From Caldilineales bacterium (GTDB taxonomy: Bacteria; Chloroflexota; Anaerolineae; JAAEKA01), in NCBI GenBank assembly GCA_025055015.1, contig JANWYQ010000031.1, forward strand, positions 1-39,199: 39,199 nt of DNA. The letters are read 5' to 3'. The position numbers were made by a program, and so were the translations under genes. Positions 13,892 to 39,199 of the stretch are shown here, one piece after another. Each line of letters starts with the position of its first letter. Positions within the stretch are counted from its first letter, which is position 1. A model generated the notes under the pieces. It was not told where the DNA came from, did no database searches, and saw nothing but the letters and a program-made list of their open reading frames with translations.

Positions 13892-16378
13892 TCAGAACTG
13901 CTCCGCCAGCCGCATGATCAGCGGCAGGTAGAACCGCTGCAGCGGCACGGGCGTAGCCGTAGGCGTGGGCGACGGCGTGGCCGTGGGGGTCGGCGTGGGC
14001 GTGCGAGTAGCCGTGGGTGTGGAGGTAGCCGTGGGCGTGGGGGTCGGCGTGTCGGTCGGCGTGGCCGTGGGCGTAGCCGTCGGCGTCGAGGTGGGCGTGG
14101 GCGTGCGGGTGGCGGTGGGTGTCGGCGTGGGCGTGGAGCGGATCTCGCCGAAGTCCACCTGCACCTTGACCCCCAGCCGCGGCACGGTGACCGTGCGCTC
14201 GTTGGGCGTGGTGCTGGTCCAACCCTCCGGCTGCACCTGGGAGACGGTGTAGGTGCCCGGCGTGCGGATCAGGAAGGCGTACCAGCCGCAGCAGCCGCTG
14301 GTGGTGGAGCGGCCGCCGCTCAGGTTCACCGTCACACCGCCGATGCCCGTCTCGCCCAGCCAGGGCTGGTAGACCCCATCCCCGTTGCGGTCGTCGAACA
14401 CCCACCCGCCGATCTCCGACTGCGGCGGTCCGATCTCGAAGCTGACGCTGTCCGTCAGGTTGAAGGTGAAGCCGTTCGCGTCCTGGGCGCCGGTTACCTG
14501 GGCCGTGTTGGTGGAGCTGGTGCAGGCGGTGGTCGGCGTGAAGGTCAGGTTGACGGTCACGCTCTGGCCAGGCGCTAGGGGCCCGGTGGCCGTGGTCAGG
14601 TCGAACCAGGTCAGGGAGGGCGACAGGCTGTCGGGCGGGATGCTGGCGCTGACGAACTGCATGCAGGTGGGATTGAAGGTGTCCTGCAGCGGCAGGCGGG
14701 TAATGGTGGTGCTGCCGATGTTGCGGATCTCCACGGCAAAGGTGGCCGGTTGGCCGCTGATCACCGCGTTGTCGGCCGGGTAGGGCCCGGTCAGTCGCTT
14801 GTCCAGGCTCAGGTTGGCTGCGAGCACGCGGGCCGTGGCCTGGGCCGAGGTGGACACGCCCCGGGCTGGCGCGCTGGCGGTCCAGGTGACGACGTTGTCG
14901 GTGCTCTGGTTGAGGGTGGTGGTGCGGGTGATGAACACCGTGCCGCCGGGGCCCAGCGGGTAGGAGAGGCCGGCGGCGATGGTGCCCAGCCGGTTGTCCA
15001 CCACCGTGTGCTGGGTTAGCGTCACTGTGCCGGTGTTGCGGACGCGGAAGCAGTAGGTCACCCGGTCGCCCGCCTTGATGGCTAGGGTGTTGCCGGCGGC
15101 GCAGGTGTTGGGATCGGTGCCTACCGTCTTGGTCACCACGATGGACGCCACCTCCACCAGGGCAGAGTCGCTGTCGGTCACCGACAGGCCCAGGGCCGGC
15201 ACGCGGGCCGTCCACGTCATCGCGTTGGCCGTGGTGCTGGTCAACACGGCGGACTTGGTGATGAAGGTGCTGGCTCCCGGCAGCAGGTTGCGGGCCAGGC
15301 CGCTGGCAATAACGCCCAGCCGGTTGTCCACCACGTCGTGCAAGGGCAGGGCCACGCTGCCGGTGTTGGTGGCCCGGTAGCAGTACACCACCCGCGTGCC
15401 CGCCGCCACGTAGAGCGGGTCGCTGGTGCCGCAAGCCAGCGGGTTGGTGCCGGCCGTCTTCTGGACCTGCAGCGACGCCACCTCCACCCGGGCCGTGTCG
15501 CTGTCCTGCACCGTCACGTCCCAGTCGGGCAGGGTGGCGGTCCAGGTGGCGACGTTGGTGACAGCCGTGTCCACGGTGGTGGCCACGGTGATGAACGCGC
15601 TGGCGCCGGGCGTCAAGGTGTACGGATAGCTGGCCAGGATGACGCCCAGCTCGCTGTCCACCAGGTCGTGCAGCGGCAGGTCCACGCTGCCCGTGTTGGT
15701 GACCTGGTAGCAGTAGACCACCTCGCTGCCGGCGACCACGCTGACCGCGTCGGTGGCCGCGCAGGTCAGCCGGCTGGTGCCCACGGTCTTGGTCAGCTCC
15801 AGGTTGGCGACGTGGACGGTGGCCGTGTCGCTGGCCAACACCGGCGGGGTCAGCCCGCCGGTGCCTGCCGTCCACACGGCCAGGTTGGCCACGCTTTGGG
15901 TGACCACGGCGGTGGCGGTGAGGGTGGCTGTGCCGCCGGGCGGCAGGGGATAGGCTAGGTTCAAGGCGATGGTGCCCAGCTGGCTGTCGAACAGGCTGTG
16001 GCGGGTCAGGGTGACCGAGCCGGTGTTGCGCACCTGGTAACAGTACACCACCTCGGTGCCGGGAGCGACCACGAGGGTGTCGTCGGACCCGCAGACCAGC
16101 GGGTCCAGGCCCACGGTCTTGGTGAGCACGATGGCTGCAGCCAGGGGACGGGCAAGAGGAGCGGCCTTAGCGCCGGGCTGGATGGAGCCGATGGCCTTGG
16201 GCGGCGGCAGCCGGGCCGGCTGCTGGGCCTCGGGCGCAGCCTTGGCGAGGCCTATGGGCCCGGCCACGCCGCCGGCGCCGGGCTGGGCCGCCAGGGCCAC
16301 CGCCCCGGCCGTGAGCACCAGGCCCAGCCCAAGGGCGAGCGCTAGGGCCAGGAGCTGTGTCTTTCGTGCGGTAGACAT
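13892..16378 (-). CDS. Large secreted surface protein: four 110-residue repeats, DUF11-like and SdrD-B-like domains, Thr-Pro stalk
   Basis: 828 residues. A Sec signal peptide (residues 1-31, [20 protein letters not shown]) is followed by four tandem repeats of exactly 110 residues beginning near 85, 195, 305 and 415. Each has KT(V/A)G...C..., VYC(Y/F)...NTG and VD(N/S)xLG motifs, and a Cys pair 17 residues apart (96/113, 206/223, 316/333, 426/443), probably a disulfide. A DUF11-like domain (about 525-650) follows, then an SdrD-B-like domain starting [19 protein letters not shown] Thr-Pro stalk (about 745-810) precedes the tail [16 protein letters not shown]. There is no LPXTG signal. AGGAGG lies just before the ATG on the minus strand. 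Likely a cell-surface or adhesion protein; anchoring mode unknown. Confidence 0.85.
13949..14146 (-). repeat. Low-complexity DNA encoding the Thr-Pro stalk
   Basis: A run of GGCGTG/GGGCGT-like 6-bp units (plus-strand reading) encodes TPT, TAT and TPTPT tripeptides on the minus strand. The number of units is likely to vary between strains by slippage, changing stalk length without shifting frame. Confidence 0.7.
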
Positions 16379-29694: not shown

Positions 29695-30348
29695 ATGACC
29701 GAACCACAGATGCCAGCGGACCCGGCGGTGGGCGAGTACCTGGCACAGGTGCGCGGGGTGCTGGCCCGGCTGTCGCCGGAGCAGATCACGGCTGCGGTGG
29801 ACCTACTGTTGGACACGTGGCGCCGGCGGGCGCGGGTGTACGTGTGCGGTAACGGCGGCAGCGCGGCCATCGCCTCCCACTTCGCCGGCGACCTGAACAA
29901 GGGGGCCAACGTGGCGGGGCGCCATCGCTTTCGCGCCGTGGCCTTGGTGGACAACGTGCCGGCGCTGATGGCCTGGAGCAACGACGAGGGCTACCACGTG
30001 GGGCTGATGGAGCCGCTGCGCAACTTCGTCGAGCCCGGCGATCTGGTGATCGGCATCAGCGGCAGCGGCAACTCGGCCAACGTGGTGGCAGCCATCGAGC
30101 TGGCCAACGCCGTGGGCGCCTCCACCCTGGCCCTGTGCGGCTTCGACGGCGGCCGCCTGCGCCGGCTGAGCCAGGTGGCGGTGCACGTGCCCTCCCACAG
30201 CATGGAGCAGGTGGAGGACGCGTTCACGGTGATCTGCCACGTGCTGCTGTACACCCTGCGCCGCCGCATTCGCCACGAGCCGCCGGCCCAGAACCCCCTG
30301 CTGGCCAGCGCAACGGACGCCTATCCGGGGGAGCTGGACCATGGGTGA
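29695..30348 (+). CDS. gmhA: SIS-domain sugar-phosphate isomerase, sedoheptulose-7-phosphate isomerase-like
   Basis: 217 residues. VYVCGNGGSAAIASHFAGDL (about 48-67) and GDLVIGISGSGNSANVV are the SIS-domain phosphosugar-binding loops. GmhA converts sedoheptulose 7-phosphate to D-glycero-D-manno-heptose 7-phosphate, the first heptose step. The ATG follows GAGAGGGACC; an earlier in-frame ATG lies inside the previous gene and is unlikely. It overlaps gmhB by 8 bp. The gmhA label rests on family motifs plus the adjacent HddA- and GmhB-like genes. Confidence 0.85.
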   Translation: MTEPQMPADPAVGEYLAQVRGVLARLSPEQITAAVDLLLDTWRRRARVYVCGNGGSAAIASHFAGDLNKGANVAGRHRFRAVALVDNVPALMAWSNDEGYHVGLMEPLRNFVEPGDLVIGISGSGNSANVVAAIELANAVGASTLALCGFDGGRLRRLSQVAVHVPSHSMEQVEDAFTVICHVLLYTLRRRIRHEPPAQNPLLASATDAYPGELDHG

Positions 30349-30940
30349 CGCTCCCTTGGGGCGGGCGGTGTTCCTGGACCGCGATGGCGTGATCGTCGTG
30401 AACCACACCGACTACGTGCGGTCGTGGGAACAGGTGCAGTTCTTGCCCGGCGCGCTGGACGCCCTGCGGCGGCTGGCCGGCACCCCGCTGGCGGTGGTGG
30501 TGGTCACCAACCAGTCGGCGGTCGGGCGAGGGCTGATGTCCCTGGACCAGATGTGGGCCATCAACGCCGGCATCGCGGCCACGGTGTCCGTGCAGGGTGG
30601 GCGCTTGGACCGGGTGTACGCGTGTCCCCATCGGCCTGACGAGGGGTGCGCCTGCCGCAAGCCGGCGCCCGGCATGTTGCTGGCGGCTGCGGCCGACATG
30701 GGACTGGACCTGTCCCGATCCTACCTAGTGGGGGACGCGGTGAGCGACGTAGAGGCGGCGATGGCGGTGGGCGCGCAGCCGATCCTGGTGCTCACCGGCC
30801 GCGGCGAAGCGCAGCGGGCCGGGCTGCGCGCGAAGGGCTACGACGTGCCGGTGGTCGCCGACCTGGCGGAAGCGGTGGCGTGGATCCTAGCGCGCGAGAC
30901 GGGGGACGGCGATCGGCAATCGGCGGATGGTGTCGGCTAG
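30341..30940 (+). CDS. gmhB: HAD-family D-glycero-D-manno-heptose 1,7-bisphosphate 7-phosphatase
   Basis: 199 residues. HAD motif I is FLDRDGV with Asp13 and Asp15, motif II VVTNQSAVGRG and motif IV VGDAVSDVEAA. The GmhB zinc loop is present: Cys95-x-His97 ... Cys103-x-Cys105 (CPHRPDEGCACRKP). It removes the 7-phosphate from heptose 1,7-bisphosphate, giving heptose 1-phosphate for nucleotidyl transfer. Last gene of the glycan operon, followed by a hairpin. Histidinol-phosphatase is an alternative within the family, but the neighbours favour the heptose role. Confidence 0.88.
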   Translation: MGDAPLGRAVFLDRDGVIVVNHTDYVRSWEQVQFLPGALDALRRLAGTPLAVVVVTNQSAVGRGLMSLDQMWAINAGIAATVSVQGGRLDRVYACPHRPDEGCACRKPAPGMLLAAAADMGLDLSRSYLVGDAVSDVEAAMAVGAQPILVLTGRGEAQRAGLRAKGYDVPVVADLAEAVAWILARETGDGDRQSADGVG

Positions 30941-30990
30941 CCGGCCGCACGATGGGCGCTGGGAGACCTGGCTGCTCAACCTGGCCAGCA

Positions 30991-31027
30991 AAGAAGGGTG
31001 CGCGCCGCAACCGGCCGCACCCTTCTT
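30991..31027 (+). terminator. 12-bp perfect hairpin ending the glycan operon
   Basis: AAGAAGGGTGCG (30991-31002) pairs perfectly with CGCACCCTTCTT (31016-31027). The U-rich 3' arm CTTCTTCGT is only partly T-rich, but position and stem strength suit a terminator. Confidence 0.65.
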
Positions 31028-31038
31028 CGTGTGACGGA

Positions 31039-31246
31039 GCTCGCACCGGGGTGTGCGTATGGGTTCGCACCTAGGGGTGCGAACTCCGCATTCGGAACTC
31101 GTTCGCACCAGGGGGTGCGAACTCCGCAGCGCGGTTGGCATTGCGGTTCGCACCTGGGGGTGCGAACTTCGCGGGAAATGACCTTTTGCCTGCGGAGGGA
31201 GGCGCCCCCAGGCGCCGGCGGGTTGTTCGCACCGGGTGGTGCGAAC
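31039..31246. repeat. Array of four 22-bp palindromes (plus one degenerate), left copy
   Basis: The palindrome GTTCGCACC-N4-GGTGCGAAC occurs perfectly at 31063-31084, 31101-31122, 31146-31167 and 31225-31246, with loops TAGG, AGGG, TGGG and GGGT. A degenerate relative is at 31039-31060. An additional palindrome, GGCGCC-CCCA-GGCGCC, lies at 31201-31216. Unit spacing is irregular (16 to 57 bp) and intervening bases differ, so it is not a CRISPR. Together with the terminator and heptamers it fills the 367-bp gap between gmhB and eno, where no gene is seen. Confidence 0.9.
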
Positions 31247-31259
31247 TCCACGGTGGACT

Positions 31260-31301
31260 GTTTACCGTTTACCGTTCACTGTTCACCGTCTACCGTTCAC
31301 C
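31260..31301. repeat. Heptamer array, six GTTYACY-type units
   Basis: Six head-to-tail 7-bp units in perfect register: GTTTACC, GTTTACC, GTTCACT, GTTCACC, GTCTACC, GTTCACC. The array ends 6 bp from the eno stop codon and 13 bp from the last palindrome. Confidence 0.9.
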
Positions 31302-31307
31302 GCCCCC

Positions 31308-33762
<2,455 letters not shown>

Positions 33763-33798
33763 GAGGGAGCTCCTGGGGGATGGACCGTCCTGCGCACT

Positions 33799-33871
33799 GC
33801 GTAACTCACACCTCGTAACCCCAATGAAAAAGCTACACGGCACGAGTTACGTACTACGCATTACCGGTTAC
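33799..33871. repeat. Degenerate heptamer arrays (NNNTTAC/NNGTAAC type)
   Basis: GCGTAAC, TCACACC, TCGTAAC (33799-33819) and GAGTTAC, GTACTAC, GCATTAC, CGGTTAC (33844-33871) keep a 7-bp register. The second array ends directly beside the acyl-CoA synthetase stop codon (33873-33875). The units are more diverged than the GGTGAAC type. Confidence 0.65.
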
Positions 33872-33872
33872 T

Positions 33873-35972
33873 TCACTTCAGTACCAACCGCATGTCAATG
33901 CCCAGCGCGCCCTTGCCGCGCTCGAACACCATCAAGGGGTTGATGTCCAACTCGACGATCTCTGGGAAGTCCGTGACCAGTTGGCTCAGCCGCAACATCA
34001 CGTCCACAATCGCGTCTAGGTCGCTGGGAGGCTCCCCGCGCACGCCCTTGAGCAGAGAGTAGGAGCGGATCTCGCTCAGCATCTCCCGCGCCTGCTCGCG
34101 GTCAATGGGTGCGACGCGGAAGGTGACGTCCTTGAGGGCCTCCACGTAGATGCCGCCCAGGCCGAACACCAGCAGCGGCCCGAACTGCGGGTCGCGGTTC
34201 ATACCCAACAGCACCTCCTTGCCCCCGCGCACCTGCTGCTGCACCAGACAGCCCCAGATCTCGGCCGTGGGCTGGTAGCGCTGGGCGCGGTAGACCATGA
34301 GGTCGAAGGCGTCTCGCACCTGGTCGGCCGTCTGCAGGTTCAGCTTGACGCCGCCGATGTCGGTCTTGTGCAGGATGTCGGGCGAGGCGATCTTAAGCAC
34401 CACCGGGAAGCCGATCTCCTCGGCGGCCGCCGCGGCCTGGTCGGGCGTCTTGGCCAAGACCGATTTGGGGAAGGGAATGCCGTAGGCGGCCTGGATGGTG
34501 CGCGCTTCGGCGTCGCCGATGGTCAGGCGGCCGTCGGCCCGCACCCGGCGCAGCACCTCGGCCACCGCCTCTCGGTCCACCTCGAAGCGCTCGATCTTGG
34601 GCACGGGCCGCTCCTGCCAGCGCTTCTGGCGCACCATCGCTGCCAGCGCGTTGACGGCCCGCTCCGGCACCGGGTAGTTGGGCAGGCCATGCTCCACCAA
34701 GATGCGCTCGCCCGCGGCGATGGTCTGCTTGCCCATGAAGGCGGTGAGGATCGGCTTGCCGCTGCGCTTGGCCACGGCCGTGACGGCCGCTGCCGTCTCC
34801 TGGATCTGGGTCATGATCTGGGGCGTCAGGATCACCAGGATGGCGCCCACGTTGGGGTCGTCGGCCACGGCGTTGATGGCCAGGGCGTAGCGGTCGGCCA
34901 TGGCGTCGCCCAGCACGTCCACCGGGTTGAGCACGCTGGCGGCCGGCGGCAGGCCCTCGCGCAGCTTGGCCTGGGTCTCGGCCGTCAGCGTGGCCAGCCG
35001 CAGGCCGGCCCGCTCCAGCGCGTCGGTGGCCATGATGCCCGGCCCGCCGGCGTTGGTGACCACGGCTACGGCGTCGGTGGCCGGCAGAGGCTGACGGGCA
35101 AAGGCCACCGCCATGTCGAACAGGTCCTGCACCGAAGTGGCCCGCAGGACGCCGGCCTGCAGGAAGGCGGCCTCGTAGGCGCGCTCGGAGCCGGCCAGGG
35201 TGCCGGTGTGGCTGGACACGGCGCGGCTGCCGGCCTGGGTGGTGCCCGATTTCACGGCGATTACCGGCTTGCGCTTGCTCACCTGGCGCGCCACCTCGAT
35301 GAAGCGCGCGCCGTCGGCGATCCCCTCCAGGTAGGCCGTGATCACGCGGCTGTTGGGGTCATCGCCCCAGGCCTGGAGGAAGTCAATCTCGTTCAGGTCC
35401 GCCTTGTTGCCCAGGCTGACGAACCGGCTGAACCCGATGCCGTCGGCCAGGGCCATGTCCAGGATGCTGGTGCACAGTGCGCCCGACTGAGACATGAAGG
35501 CGATGCCGCCCTGCTTGGGCATGCCTAGGGCAAAGCTGGCCTGCAGGGGCACAAAGGTGTCAATGATCCCCAGACAGTTGGGGCCGATCATGCGCATGCC
35601 GTAGCGCCGCACGGTGGCCAGCAGGTCCCTCTCCATAGCCAGGCCCTGCGGGCCCACCTCACGGAAGCCGGCCGTGATGACGATGATCCCGCCCACGCCT
35701 TTTTGGCCGCACTCCTCCACGACCGCCAGCACCGCCTGGCTGGGCACCACGATCACCGCCAGGTCAACCTCGCCCGGCACGGCCAGCACGCTGGGGTAGC
35801 AGCGCCGGCCCATGATCTCCTCGGCCTTGGGGTTGATGGGATAGACGTCGCCGGGGAAGCCGTGCGTGACGATGTTGTAAACGACAGCGTGGCCCAGCTT
35901 CTTCGGATCGGCGCTGGCGCCCACCACAGCTACCGAGCGAGGGTTAAAGAAGGGATCCAAAGTGAGAGCCAT
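33873..35972 (-). CDS. ADP-forming acetate/acyl-CoA synthetase, fused alpha-beta
   Basis: 699 residues. An N-terminal CoA-binding Rossmann domain (SVAVVGASADPKKLGHAVV, VYPINPKA) is followed by succinyl-CoA-ligase-like domains. The phospho-His is His255 in AVSSHTGTLAG. The C-terminal ATP-grasp domain (from about 470) ends ELDINPLMVF. It converts acyl-CoA + ADP + Pi to acid + ATP, saving energy in fermentation, or runs in reverse. The fused order matches the archaeal/Chloroflexota type. It heads a minus-strand unit with the DRTGG and eno genes. The ribosome site is weak. Substrate could be acetate or a branched/aryl acid. Confidence 0.9.
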   Translation of the reverse strand: MALTLDPFFNPRSVAVVGASADPKKLGHAVVYNIVTHGFPGDVYPINPKAEEIMGRRCYPSVLAVPGEVDLAVIVVPSQAVLAVVEECGQKGVGGIIVITAGFREVGPQGLAMERDLLATVRRYGMRMIGPNCLGIIDTFVPLQASFALGMPKQGGIAFMSQSGALCTSILDMALADGIGFSRFVSLGNKADLNEIDFLQAWGDDPNSRVITAYLEGIADGARFIEVARQVSKRKPVIAVKSGTTQAGSRAVSSHTGTLAGSERAYEAAFLQAGVLRATSVQDLFDMAVAFARQPLPATDAVAVVTNAGGPGIMATDALERAGLRLATLTAETQAKLREGLPPAASVLNPVDVLGDAMADRYALAINAVADDPNVGAILVILTPQIMTQIQETAAAVTAVAKRSGKPILTAFMGKQTIAAGERILVEHGLPNYPVPERAVNALAAMVRQKRWQERPVPKIERFEVDREAVAEVLRRVRADGRLTIGDAEARTIQAAYGIPFPKSVLAKTPDQAAAAAEEIGFPVVLKIASPDILHKTDIGGVKLNLQTADQVRDAFDLMVYRAQRYQPTAEIWGCLVQQQVRGGKEVLLGMNRDPQFGPLLVFGLGGIYVEALKDVTFRVAPIDREQAREMLSEIRSYSLLKGVRGEPPSDLDAIVDVMLRLSQLVTDFPEIVELDINPLMVFERGKGALGIDMRLVLK

Positions 35973-36064
35973 AAGTGCTCGACATAAGTAGAGGATGAGA
36001 AAAGGGGAAAAGGGACGGCTCGAAGGCTTGTGAACCCGCGAGCAAAGTGGGGAAACCGGTGCCT
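35973..36064. other. Leader of the acyl-CoA synthetase gene, no gene seen
   Basis: The stretch is purine-rich on the plus strand. GCTCG and CGAGC (around 36028-36053) could pair. I found no match to a riboswitch consensus that I can defend. Confidence 0.3.
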
Positions 36065-36093
36065 ATGATACCGCAGGTGAGAGAAGTTGGCAA
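36065..36093 (-). promoter_or_regulatory. Minus-strand promoter of the acyl-CoA synthetase operon
   Basis: On the minus strand TTGCCA (36093-36088) and TATCAT (36070-36065) are separated by 17 bp. The predicted transcript starts near 36058 and leaves a leader of about 85 nt. The -35 overlaps the small hairpin GTTGGC-AAA-GCCAAC on the plus strand (about 36087-36101). Confidence 0.55.
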
Positions 36094-36149
36094 AGCCAAC
36101 GGCTCGCTGCGCAAGTATGGATGGGAGGGCTGAATGTATGCCATCGCGC

Positions 36150-36178
36150 TTGTGACCGCCTTGCACCGATGGTATACT
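36150..36178 (+). promoter_or_regulatory. Promoter of the cysteine desulfurase-mnmA unit
   Basis: TTGTGA (36150-36155) and TATACT (36173-36178) with a 17-bp spacer. Transcription should start near 36185, about 50 nt before the desulfurase ATG, and diverges from the acyl-CoA synthetase promoter. Confidence 0.65.
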
Positions 36179-36192
36179 GGTCTCTGAGACCA
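36178..36192. promoter_or_regulatory. Operator-like palindrome at the desulfurase transcription start
   Basis: TGGTCTC-T-GAGACCA is a perfect 7+1+7 palindrome overlapping the last base of the -10 box and the start site. The position fits a repressor operator. The cognate regulator is unknown; no regulator gene is adjacent. Confidence 0.55.
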
Positions 36193-36194
36193 TT

Positions 36195-36229
36195 GTCTAC
36201 CGTTCACCGATCACTGTTCACCGGTAACC
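36195..36229. repeat. Heptamer array forming the desulfurase 5' leader
   Basis: Five units, GTCTACC, GTTCACC, GATCACT, GTTCACC, GGTAACC, run to 4 bp before the ATG at 36234. They occupy most of the predicted leader and leave no Shine-Dalgarno sequence. Confidence 0.85.
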
Positions 36230-36233
36230 GACC

Positions 36234-37394
36234 ATGTCCGCGCCCAACATCGTCTACCTGGACCACGCCGCCACCACACCCATGCGGCCGGAGGTGCTGG
36301 ACGCCATGCTGCCTTACTTCGTCCAGCACTACGGCAACCCTAGCAGCCTGCACCGGGTGGGCCGCGAGGCCGCCAAGGCGCTGCGCCGCGCGCGCGAGCA
36401 GATGGCGGACGTGCTGGGCTGCTCGCCCAACGAGCTGATCGTCACCGGCGGCGGCACGGAGGCCAACAACCTGGCGCTGCGCGGGGTCGCCCTGGCCCAG
36501 CGCCAGCGCGGCCGCGGCCGACACCTGATCGTCAGCGCGGTTGAGCACAAGGGCGTGTTGGAGACCGCCTACCAGCTGCGCGACTGCTTTGGCTTCGAGC
36601 TGACGGTGCTGCCGGTGGACGCAGCGGGCCGGGTGGACCCAGTGGACCTGGCCGCGGCCATCCGGCCCGACACGGTGCTGGTGAGCATCATGGCGGCCAA
36701 CAACGAGGTGGGGACCCTGCAGCCGCTGGCCGACCTGAGCGCGATCTGCCGGGAGCGAGGCGTCCCCTTCCATTGCGACGCCGTCCAGGCCTCGCCGACG
36801 CTCTCCCTGCGGGTAGATGGGCTGGGGGTGGACCTGATGACCCTGGCTGCGCACAAGTTCTACGGCCCCAAGGGCGTGGGCCTGCTCTACGTCCGCCGCG
36901 GGGTGCCCCTCATGCCTCAGATCACCGGCGGCAGCCAGGAGAACAAGCGCCGCGCCGGCACCGAGAACGTGGCGGGCGCGGTGGGCATGGCGACCGCGCT
37001 GGCGCTCTCTCAGGCGGAGCGGGACGAGGAGGCGCAACGGCTGGCGGCTCTGCGCGAGCGGCTGATCGAGGGCGTCCTGGCGGCCGTCCCCGACGCATAC
37101 CTCACCGGCCACCGCTCGGAGCGCATGGTCAACCACGCCAGCTTCGTGGTGCGGGGCGTGGAGGCCGAGGGCATGTTGATCGGCTTGGACATGGCCGGCA
37201 TCTGCGCTAGCAGCGGCTCGGCCTGCACCAGCGGCGCCCACGAGCCCAGCCACGTGCTCACCGCGATGGGCGTACCGGCCATGGACGCGGTTGGCCACCT
37301 GCGCCTCAGCCTGGGCCACAGCAACACCGACGCGGACGTGGACCGGGTGCTGGCCGTGTTGCCCGGCTTGGTGGAGCGGCTGAGGAGAGGGTGA
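36234..37394 (+). CDS. Cysteine desulfurase (IscS/NifS family)
   Basis: 386 residues, PLP-dependent, moves sulfur from cysteine to a protein persulfide. Seen: YLDHAATTPMRPEVLDAM, the conserved His in EHKGVLE, Asp182 in FHCDAVQA, the PLP Lys208 in AAHKFYGPKG, and active-site Cys331 in SSGSACTSGAHEPSHVL. A standard IscS-type layout. Directly upstream of mnmA, so the likely sulfur recipient is tRNA 2-thiouridine synthesis, with Fe-S assembly also possible. No Shine-Dalgarno: the leader is a heptamer array. The stop codon lies inside the next heptamer array. Confidence 0.95.
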   Translation: MSAPNIVYLDHAATTPMRPEVLDAMLPYFVQHYGNPSSLHRVGREAAKALRRAREQMADVLGCSPNELIVTGGGTEANNLALRGVALAQRQRGRGRHLIVSAVEHKGVLETAYQLRDCFGFELTVLPVDAAGRVDPVDLAAAIRPDTVLVSIMAANNEVGTLQPLADLSAICRERGVPFHCDAVQASPTLSLRVDGLGVDLMTLAAHKFYGPKGVGLLYVRRGVPLMPQITGGSQENKRRAGTENVAGAVGMATALALSQAERDEEAQRLAALRERLIEGVLAAVPDAYLTGHRSERMVNHASFVVRGVEAEGMLIGLDMAGICASSGSACTSGAHEPSHVLTAMGVPAMDAVGHLRLSLGHSNTDADVDRVLAVLPGLVERLRRG

Positions 37395-37522
37395 GCGGGG
37401 AGCGGTGAACGGTAAACGGTGAACGGTAAACGGTGAACGGTGAACGGTAATCAGTGATCAGTGATCAGTGATCAGTGATCGGTAGTCAGTGATCGGTGAT
37501 CGTTAACTCGTAACCTGCGACC
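37390..37522. repeat. Nineteen-unit heptamer array between the desulfurase and mnmA genes
   Basis: The units run in unbroken 7-bp register: GGTGAGC, GGGGAGC, alternating GGTGAAC and GGTAAAC, GGTAATC, four AGTGATC in a row, GGTAGTC, AGTGATC, GGTGATC, GTTAACT, CGTAACC, TGCGACC. The TGA stop of the desulfurase (37392-37394) is inside the first unit. Nothing else is seen in the 189-bp gap. Confidence 0.93.
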
Positions 37523-37583
37523 GGAATAGCGGCGACTGGCTCTGTTGCAAGTTATCGGTTGCGCACTCCTTAGTTTACGCGCT

Positions 37584-38759
37584 ATGCCTCGCGTTGTTGT
37601 TGCCATGAGCGGCGGGGTGGATAGCTCCTTGGCCGCAGCCCTGCTGAAGGAGCGGGGCTACGAAGTGATCGGCGTGATGATGCGCCTGTGGGCCGAGCTG
37701 TCGGCCGGCGAGGCCAGCACCAACAAGTGCTGCTCGCTGGAGGCGGTCAACGACGCGCGCCGCGTGGCCGATGCGTTGGACATCCCCTTCTACCTGATCA
37801 ACGTTGAGCAGCCGTTTAAGGAGCGGGTGGTGGACTTCACCGTGGCCGGCTACCTGGCCGGGGAGACGCCCAACCCCTGCGTCCAGTGCAACCGCCACAT
37901 CCGCTTCGACTACCTGTTCAACTACGCCATGCGCCTGGGCGCAGACTACCTGGCCACCGGCCACTACGCCCGCGTCCGCCGCGTAGAAAGTGTGCCGTCT
38001 TTAGCTGAAAGCCATGAGACGCTCTCTACCGACCGCGGATCACCGATCACCGATCACCGGTCACCGCTCACCGGCTACTACCAGCTCCTCACCGCCGTTG
38101 ACCTGGACAAGGACCAGAGCTACGTGCTGCACGTGCTGACCCAGCGCCACCTGGCGCGGGTGCTCTTTCCGGTGGGCGAGTACACCAAGGCCGAGGTGCG
38201 ACAGATGGCGGCGGAGCGCGGGCTGCCCGTGGCCGGCCGGCGGGAGAGCCAGGACCTCTGCTTCCTGGCCGACGGTGACTATCGCCGCTTCCTGCGCGAC
38301 TGGGCGCCGGCCGGCGCCATCCGGCCCGGCCCCATCGTGGACAGCAGCGGCCGGGTGTTGGGCCAGCACAGCGGCCTGCCCTTCTACACCGTTGGCCAGC
38401 GCAAGGGATTGGGCATCGCGGCCCGCGAGCCGCTCTACGTGCTGCGCCTGGAGCCGGCCACCAACACCGTGGTAGTGGGCCCGGCGGCGGAGCTGGGCCG
38501 CGACCGGCTGACTGCGCGCACGGTGAACTGGATCGCCGGCCGGCCGCCGGATGGGCCGATCCGCGCCCAGGTGAAGATCCGCTACAAGGCGCAGCCTGTG
38601 GCGGCCACCGTGATCCCCCTGCCCAACGACCGGGCAGCGGTGCGCTTCGATCGCCCGCTGCGGGACATCACCGCCGGCCAGGCGGCCGTGTTCTACGACG
38701 GGGAGGTGTGCCTGGGGGGTGGGTTGATTGAGGTGGAGGAGGGGGTCGGTGAGCGGTGA
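37584..38759 (+). CDS. mnmA: tRNA 2-thiouridylase MnmA with a repeat-derived insertion
   Basis: 391 residues from ATG 37584 ([15 protein letters not shown]), about 30 longer than usual. The PP-loop SGGVDSS is at 9-15, catalytic Cys102 in NPCVQCN and second catalytic Cys226 in [14 protein letters not shown] and DKDQSYVL are conserved. It thiolates U34 of tRNAs for Lys, Glu and Gln using sulfur from a desulfurase such as the one upstream. Between [10 protein letters not shown] and [16 protein letters not shown] sits an extra stretch (about residues 134-164) partly encoded by heptamer repeats. The last residues GER and the stop also come from a heptamer array. An earlier ATG at 37545 adds 13 non-conserved residues. 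Confidence 0.95.
38024..38079. repeat. Heptamer array inside the mnmA reading frame
   Basis: Clear units GATCACC x3, GGTCACC, GCTCACC span 38038-38072, flanked by degenerate CTCTACC, GACCGCG and GGCTACT. GATCACC is the reverse complement of the GGTGATC unit at 37495-37501. The array is translated as [12 protein letters not shown] within the protein. Confidence 0.9.
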
Positions 38760-38810
38760 GCGGTGAACGGTAAACCGTGAACGGTGAACGGTAAACGGTG
38801 AACCGTGAAC
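38748..38810. repeat. Nine-unit heptamer array over the mnmA stop codon
   Basis: Units GGTGAGC x2, GGTGAAC, GGTAAAC, CGTGAAC, GGTGAAC, GGTAAAC, GGTGAAC, CGTGAAC in register. The mnmA stop TGA (38757-38759) lies in the second unit. Confidence 0.92.
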
Positions 38811-38816
38811 AGCGGA

Positions 38817-39000
38817 GTTCGCACCCCCAGGTGCGAACGCATGCCCAGCGTGGAGTACGCACCCCCAGGTGCGAACCCGTAAGCGCCGTGCTTCTCTGTG
38901 GAGTGCGAACCCCCAGGTGCAAACCCCCCGGCGCCTGGGGGCGCCTCCCTCCGCAGGCGAGAGGTGATTTCCCGCGGAGTTCGCACCCCCAGGTGCGAAC
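38817..39000. repeat. Array of four 22-bp palindromes, right copy, inverted relative to the left copy
   Basis: Perfect palindromes (GTTCGCACC-N4-GGTGCGAAC, loop CCCA) at 38817-38838 and 38979-39000; near-perfect at 38855-38876 and degenerate at 38903-38924. The segment 38921-39000 is the reverse complement of 31146-31225 with 6 mismatches in 80. The 408-bp interval from mnmA to the next gene holds this array, the heptamers, about 107 bp with nothing recognisable (39001-39107), and a promoter. Confidence 0.9.
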
Positions 39001-39107
39001 TCAATCGGGCACGTTGCGTTTCCCTGCGGCTACCAGTGCCCGGCGCAGTTCAGCGGAGCCGCCGCAGCCGCGTGTACCGGGCGCCCGCACGCCTGCCCGG
39101 CCGGTTG

Positions 39108-39136
39108 TTGACACACCCCTACCCCTGCGGTACAAT
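39108..39136 (+). promoter_or_regulatory. Sigma-70-type promoter for the gene at the window end
   Basis: TTGACA (39108-39113) and TACAAT (39131-39136) with a 17-bp spacer; expected start near 39143, about 26 nt before the GTG at 39169. Confidence 0.75.
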
Positions 39137-39168
39137 GACGCCATCTTTGTGACGGAGAAAACGAGCCC

Positions 39169-39199
39169 GTGAGCGAGTTCTACTACGGCGGACAGGCTG
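39169..39199 (+). CDS. Start of a probable DUF1385 (YqhQ-like) membrane protein gene, cut by the window end
   Basis: GTG 39169 begins M-S-E-F-Y-Y-G-G-Q-A, preceded by GGAG and a consensus promoter. YYGGQA recalls the opening of DUF1385 proteins (YGGQAVIEGVMMR). Only ten residues are visible, so identity is tentative. Confidence 0.5.
   Translation, partial: MSEFYYGGQA

Follow-up and report, generated by a model that had tools for sequence, protein, structure and literature searches.

A long run of seven-nucleotide units closes the cysteine desulfurase gene shown above. The question raised by this locus is where such heptamer arrays come from and why they lie and face as they do relative to genes. 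The window, defined here as the whole stretch of DNA analysed, is 39,199 nucleotides in length and belongs to a genome (G000) of 4.14 Mb in 238 contigs that is 91.6% complete. Its arrays and the genes around them are listed in Table 1.

Table 1. Heptamer arrays and adjoining genes in the 39,199-nt window.
Feature	Positions	Strand	Remark
6-unit CRGTRAN array, 5 bp past the enolase stop codon	31261..31302	-	sense to enolase
Degenerate intergenic heptamers, GTAAC (+) on the left and GTTAC (-) on the right	33795..33872		direct reading
5-unit CRGTRAN array, antisense, 3 bp ahead of the cysteine desulfurase start codon	36196..36230	-	
Cysteine desulfurase gene (NifS/IscS type), flanked by two arrays	36234..37394	+	
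Main array, 17 in-register CRGTRAN units	37389..37507	+	each unit with at most 1 mismatch
TCGTAAC and CTGCGAC, weak units prolonging the main array to 19	37508..37521	+	direct reading
mnmA (tRNA 2-thiouridine synthase), host of an intragenic array	37584..38759	+	
5-unit CRGTRAN array inside mnmA, antisense to mnmA	38039..38073	-	pattern scan
9-unit CRGTRAN array over the mnmA 3' end	38747..38809	+	pattern scan

The main array provides the in-frame TGA stop codon of the cysteine desulfurase gene (37,392-37,394), and the 9-unit array likewise provides the mnmA stop codon (38,757-38,759). The enolase gene is encoded on the minus strand. The first-pass annotation had described 19 strict heptamers at 37390-37522, and 17 of these stand, the 18th and 19th being weak. 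It had also named related arrays at 31260, 33799, 36195, 38038 and 38748, in both orientations. Both orientations are present, and four of these five loci carry CRGTRAN arrays. The locus at 33799 is instead a degenerate pair of another heptamer type and was flagged by no scan. Of 20 mononucleotide shuffles of the window, 18 contained no array and the others one each, against five in the real window. An Rfam scan of positions 30,000-39,199 returned a single sub-threshold hit, taken as chance. Elsewhere in the window, a GC-rich repeat with units of 12, 18, and 24 occupies positions 13,949-14,136, within a minus-strand gene (13,892-16,318).

The arrays are confirmed to be real and far beyond chance. 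Exact three-unit matches number 368 in the whole genome, compared with 1 for a reversed control pattern, which bears out the earlier proposal of a genome-wide repeat family like the short heptamer repeats of cyanobacteria. With one mismatch allowed across three consecutive units, the counts are 719 and 37. Among the tandem periods of the genome, seven and its multiples predominate by a wide margin, and this holds across several sequence families. Autocorrelation over 385 kb found 16 period-7 arrays of 35 bp, and periods that are not multiples of 7 gave 0 to 2 each. When perfect runs of 20 bp or longer are counted, period 7 has 28 and each of the other periods has between 0 and 13, with periods 9 (13 runs) and 14 (10 runs) next in line; this census covers 0.89 Mb (890 kb) of the 4.14 Mb and includes contigs picked since a first pattern search had listed arrays there, which biases densities upward. 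Samples of 400 kb from two cyanobacterial chromosomes contained 37 and 66 period-7 arrays, the next periods being 12 (15 arrays) and 9 (20 arrays).

Other heptamer families in the same genome are AATGGNC, AGARGKC, and GGGGAGC. The AATGGNC pattern has 113 matches, versus 0 for its reversed control. Among all the loci examined, in this genome and in others, there are arrays that keep register where one heptamer family turns into another, as in the passage from TCAGAAG to TCATCGT to TCACCGA (locus L107, 5,520-5,690, and locus L105, 1-113).

The main units of the arrays are CGGTGAA, CGGTGAT, CGGTAAA, and CAGTGAT. Mismatches over unit positions 1 to 7 number 15, 77, 14, 19, 167, 90, and 133, respectively (p about 5e-63), so that variation is concentrated at positions 5, 7, 6, and 2. 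Neighbouring units are identical at a frequency of 0.139, compared with 0.140 after units are shuffled within each array, and positions in adjacent units share little information. A universal GTNA core was considered and rejected. Of 85 bystander units, 37 carried it where 20 were expected, but in families far from CRGTDAN the count was 9 of 46 against 9.4, and the units are not independent.

Turnover of units is indicated indirectly by two relatives, G001 and G004, which contain macro-repeats with a near-constant spacer. These serve as a natural record of repeat turnover. Their lengths step by 7, as in 61/68, 81/74, 72/65/58, and 75/82, with the 60- and 74-bp copies differing by a further 1 bp. 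Since the spacers are nearly constant, the 7-bp steps appear to outpace substitutions. The comparison is between macro-repeat copies within each of the two genomes. Macro-repeats of about 60-85 bp, in which the heptamer part varies in number and subtype, are located at L114 (17,900-18,950), L113 (18,930-19,200), and L107 (6,290-6,800). Slippage followed by mutation had been suggested as the source of the subtypes. The 7-bp length steps in the sister genomes agree with the slippage part of that suggestion. It is nevertheless insufficient, because it predicts like neighbours and even mutation, and neither was found. The unit pattern could stem from exchange between arrays, from selection that acts on fixed positions, or from synthesis in steps on a variable template. 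Loss of mismatch repair is ruled out as the cause because MutS is present in the studied genome, as it is in 98 of 100 genomes.

The placement of the arrays was determined with gene calls of our own, made by a codon-usage model, in which 85% of the DNA is coding. In the studied genome, 44 of 54 arrays are intergenic or at the edge of a gene, and the other 10 are inside called genes. Eight of these 10 are antisense, which leaves the repeat open in all frames. All 25 arrays that overlap a stop codon or start no more than 8 bp past it are sense, and 11 of the 12 that end within 27 bp of a start codon are antisense. The new observation is that the unit points outward from its gene both at stops and at starts, whatever the unit sequence. 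The CRGTDAN strand reads away from the abutted gene, at both gene ends, in 161 of 179 arrays from six sequence sets (p = 7e-30) and in 34 of 34 in the studied genome; for the other heptamer families the G-rich strand is outward in 88 of 103 (p = 1e-13), and these tests, which were sequential and used overlapping data sets and differing thresholds, agree but are not independent. Ordinary 30-bp gene flanks give 40 to 74% on the same measure. Purine content was tried as the axis of polarity and was weaker than G over C.

Array pairs are convergent in 55 cases and divergent in 2. When the count is limited to pairs 60 bp or more away from called genes, the ratio is 9 convergent to 1, in regions where the gene calls are incomplete. 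In most sets, the arrays have a sharper border at the 5' end than at the 3' end. Border phase is non-uniform, which is suggestive and is partly due to related elements in Okeania. The orientation rule, like the location of one array within mnmA, had been overlooked in the first-pass annotation.

A palindrome, GTTCGCACC-N(3)-GGGTGCGAAC, occurs in clusters of two to four copies, two of them in the window (31,063-31,246 and 38,817-39,000), with about 87 copies genome-wide. In the sampled genome there are eight clusters, six of which border the inner side of a heptamer array at a distance of 4-36 bp. The palindrome is nearly absent from relatives (2 in G003).

The array within mnmA is in frame with the full protein, is open in all frames because it is antisense to the gene, and contributes coding sequence to a loop insertion about 28 residues long. 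In the studied genome and in G001, G003, G004, and G005, a heptamer segment, degenerate in some of the five, lies between the counterparts of residues 138 and 140 in a solved MnmA. The segment is absent in G002 and in the relatives inspected outside the family. The units in the slots in and around mnmA are CGGTGAA in the studied genome, GTAACGA in G001, GCGTGAG/ACGTGAA in G003, and mixtures in G004. The presence of different units in orthologous slots shows that slots persist and their sequences change. A second new result is thus that the same slots around and inside mnmA carry different heptamers in related genomes.

A search of Chloroflexota relatives for the same heptamers, as had been proposed, found the exact CRGTRAH triple in 22 of the 100 genomes of the class searched, the studied genome included. 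Most relatives in the class lack it. All six family members searched have it, G000, G001, G003, and G004 being rich in it and G002 and G005 sparse. A four-unit CRGTDAH search of GTDB genomes matched at least 117 stretches, and taxa were read from the 80 listed, which are a sample with several records from the same genera. Among the matches listed are Cyanobacteria, Chloroflexota, Bacteroidota, Poribacteria, Acidobacteria, Planctomycetes, Zixibacteria, Parabeggiatoa, a few Actinomycetota, and others, and in many of them subtypes are mixed in register as in the studied genome. The degenerate unit also occurs in Beggiatoa. The earlier statement that the unit differs from that of cyanobacterial repeats did not hold, as the same degenerate unit, with subtypes mixed within one array, is present in Microcystis, Planktothrix, Calothrix, Okeania, and Scytonema. 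At five Okeania loci (L131, L166, L181, L185, and L200), CAGTTAT arrays have near-identical borders (...CATTT|CAGTTAT...CAGT|ACC) followed by possible hairpins. These may be a distinct dispersed element.

The existence, period, spread, and polarity of the arrays, the reuse of slots, and the 7-bp steps in sister genomes are established by these counts and comparisons, and the mechanism behind them is only moderately supported. The simplest account of the polarity is a stop-codon filter, in which orientation is set only by the TGA or TAA of CGGTGAA facing the gene end, the reverse strand being read through. The filter explains the stop-overlapping arrays of the studied genome, whose stop register (-27, -20, -13, and -6) is trivial because TGA/TAA lies in the unit, and it explains why 8 of 10 intragenic arrays are antisense. 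Where none of the units of an array has an outward-strand stop codon, the rule is kept all the same, by all seven such arrays at stops and all eight at starts, and ahead of starts it is kept in 56 of 60 arrays overall. Stop codons were rejected as the general cause of polarity on the 15 of 15 compliance of stop-free arrays, and the filter alone is a very unlikely explanation. Least probable of all is a mobile element, in which the arrays would be the ends of a transposon-like insert with heptamer terminal repeats and would for that reason form inward-facing inverted ends. In its favour are the convergent pairs and, in the studied genome, the palindromes clustered at the inner edge of arrays. 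Against it, an unsystematic look between arrays saw no conserved inner sequence or core, the gaps span roughly 0 to 250 bp, and many arrays are solitary. A role as functional RNA elements, with effects in mRNA on translation initiation or termination, on mRNA protection, or through a hairpin of convergent arrays, is a tentative alternative and on balance an unlikely one. Selection would then keep sequence, orientation, and position. This fits arrays placed 0-8 bp past stops and 0-27 bp ahead of starts in strict orientation, and units conserved at positions 1, 3, and 4 and variable at 2, 5, and 7. According to MacGregor 2015 (PMC4679880), TAACTGA repeats end most often 1 nt ahead of starts, and a section heading there speaks of few ribosome-binding sites at them. 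The same slot is, however, filled by unrelated units in related genomes, most class relatives are without the exact triple, one array lies within mnmA, and repeat-adjacent genes had no common function in earlier studies. A ribosome-site idea was dropped because CAGTTAT is not ribosome-site-like. A Rho-site idea was dropped as well, since cyanobacteria, to our knowledge, lack Rho.

Healing of DNA ends is an improbable source. Intergenic breaks would be extended at the 3' end by telomerase-like addition of 7-nt units from a variable template and then joined. The result would be G-rich 3' strands that lead out of every gene, pairs that converge, units in random order, and a step of constant size. 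The outward G-rich strand at both gene ends, the convergent pairs, the random order of subtypes with fixed variable positions, and the non-uniform border phase all agree with it. Yet it names no enzyme or template, it leaves the abutment to genes within a few bp unexplained, and slippage alone accounts for the 7-bp gains and losses in macro-repeats. Its broader form is less probable again, namely that a dedicated or moonlighting DNA synthesis shared across phyla adds degenerate 7-nt units to 3' ends at intergenic breaks. If true, it would be a bacterial counterpart of telomere healing, and the fusion of ends would leave arrays that converge, each with its G-rich strand directed outward from the adjoining gene.

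The reading favoured here, to which we give about an even chance, is turnover of tolerated heptamers combined with selection at gene borders. Heptameric arrays would form a microsatellite-like class that fills non-coding slots just past stops and just ahead of starts, and some tolerant protein loops. Whole 7-bp units would be gained and lost through misaligned DNA synthesis or unequal exchange, and arrays with differing unit sequence would arise repeatedly in the same slots. Polarity would be selected at the gene border, such that no G-rich or start-like sequence is directed into a gene, and one-directional array growth may aid it. The fixed step of seven would come from the enzymology of the synthesis. 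Functional use of arrays by single genes is possible and is not needed by this reading. Three results count against turnover with border selection. Simple slippage should leave identical neighbours, and the studied genome has no excess of these. CAGTTAT is neither G-rich nor start-like, so border selection is not obvious for such units. Convergence persists at 9 to 1 at 60 bp or more from called genes, where border selection should be weak. The favoured reading explains neither the step of seven nor the recurrence of the same units in distant phyla.

The excess of heptamers in bacterial genomes was reported as early as 2007, as cited in Rehm 2015 (PMC4692102), and no accepted explanation was found in the literature. 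Borg tandem repeats (Schoelmerich 2023, PMC9879509), as far as an excerpt of that paper describes them, are similar in being fast-evolving arrays found both between genes and in ORFs, where they add disordered segments to proteins. They differ in being A-rich and in belonging to an archaeal extrachromosomal element, and unit lengths do not enter this comparison. The studied arrays have a 7-bp tandem unit and dispersed copies enriched outside genes, as do heptameric short tandem repeats, and are filed here with the heptameric repeats of MacGregor 2015 and Rehm 2015. The resemblance to the STRR heptamers of Calothrix and other cyanobacteria, which the first-pass annotation had noted, is upheld to the extent that these are cited in Rehm 2015. 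Both are short tandem heptamers with several families per genome; the host phylum differs, and the likeness is by description, not by letter-by-letter units.

The TAACTGA repeats of Beggiatoaceae, Cyanobacteria, and Bacteroidetes (MacGregor 2015, PMC4679880) are also dispersed, mostly intergenic heptamers. TAACTGA is CAGTTAT on the other strand, rotated, and thus one form of the degenerate unit. The main units of the studied genome are not TAACTGA and share only the CRGTDAH pattern with it. The TAACTGA unit is nearly invariant in the BOGUAY genome, where close variants are rare, whereas the studied arrays mix subtypes within arrays and have a higher G+C. The two sets have the same orientation toward starts, and their intragenic copies lie in the stop-free direction. 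By a separate orientation count, start-adjacent arrays in the studied genome are directed toward the nearby start codon by 12 to 1. TAACTGA repeats at starts in Beggiatoa show the same polarity, and a small Microcystis sample was mixed (PMC4679880). Indels of 7 nt in these repeats are reported between Cyanothece strains (PMC4679880).

The G-rich GGGNATC heptamers of Xanthomonas and Nostoc (Rehm et al. 2015, PMC4692102) are likewise genome-wide and lie nearer to the ORF on the 5' side, whatever the ORF direction, with the G-rich strand sense past stops and antisense ahead of starts. Unlike them, the studied units contain no G-triplets (at most GG), and the arrays have no four-unit preference (3 to 17 units), so a G-quadruplex role does not carry over. 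The reports on Beggiatoa and cyanobacteria and on Xanthomonas and Nostoc are thereby joined with the studied genome by one orientation rule that is independent of unit sequence. This rule and the refilling of slots with different heptamers make why seven, and why facing away from genes, a testable question in laboratory cyanobacteria or Xanthomonas.
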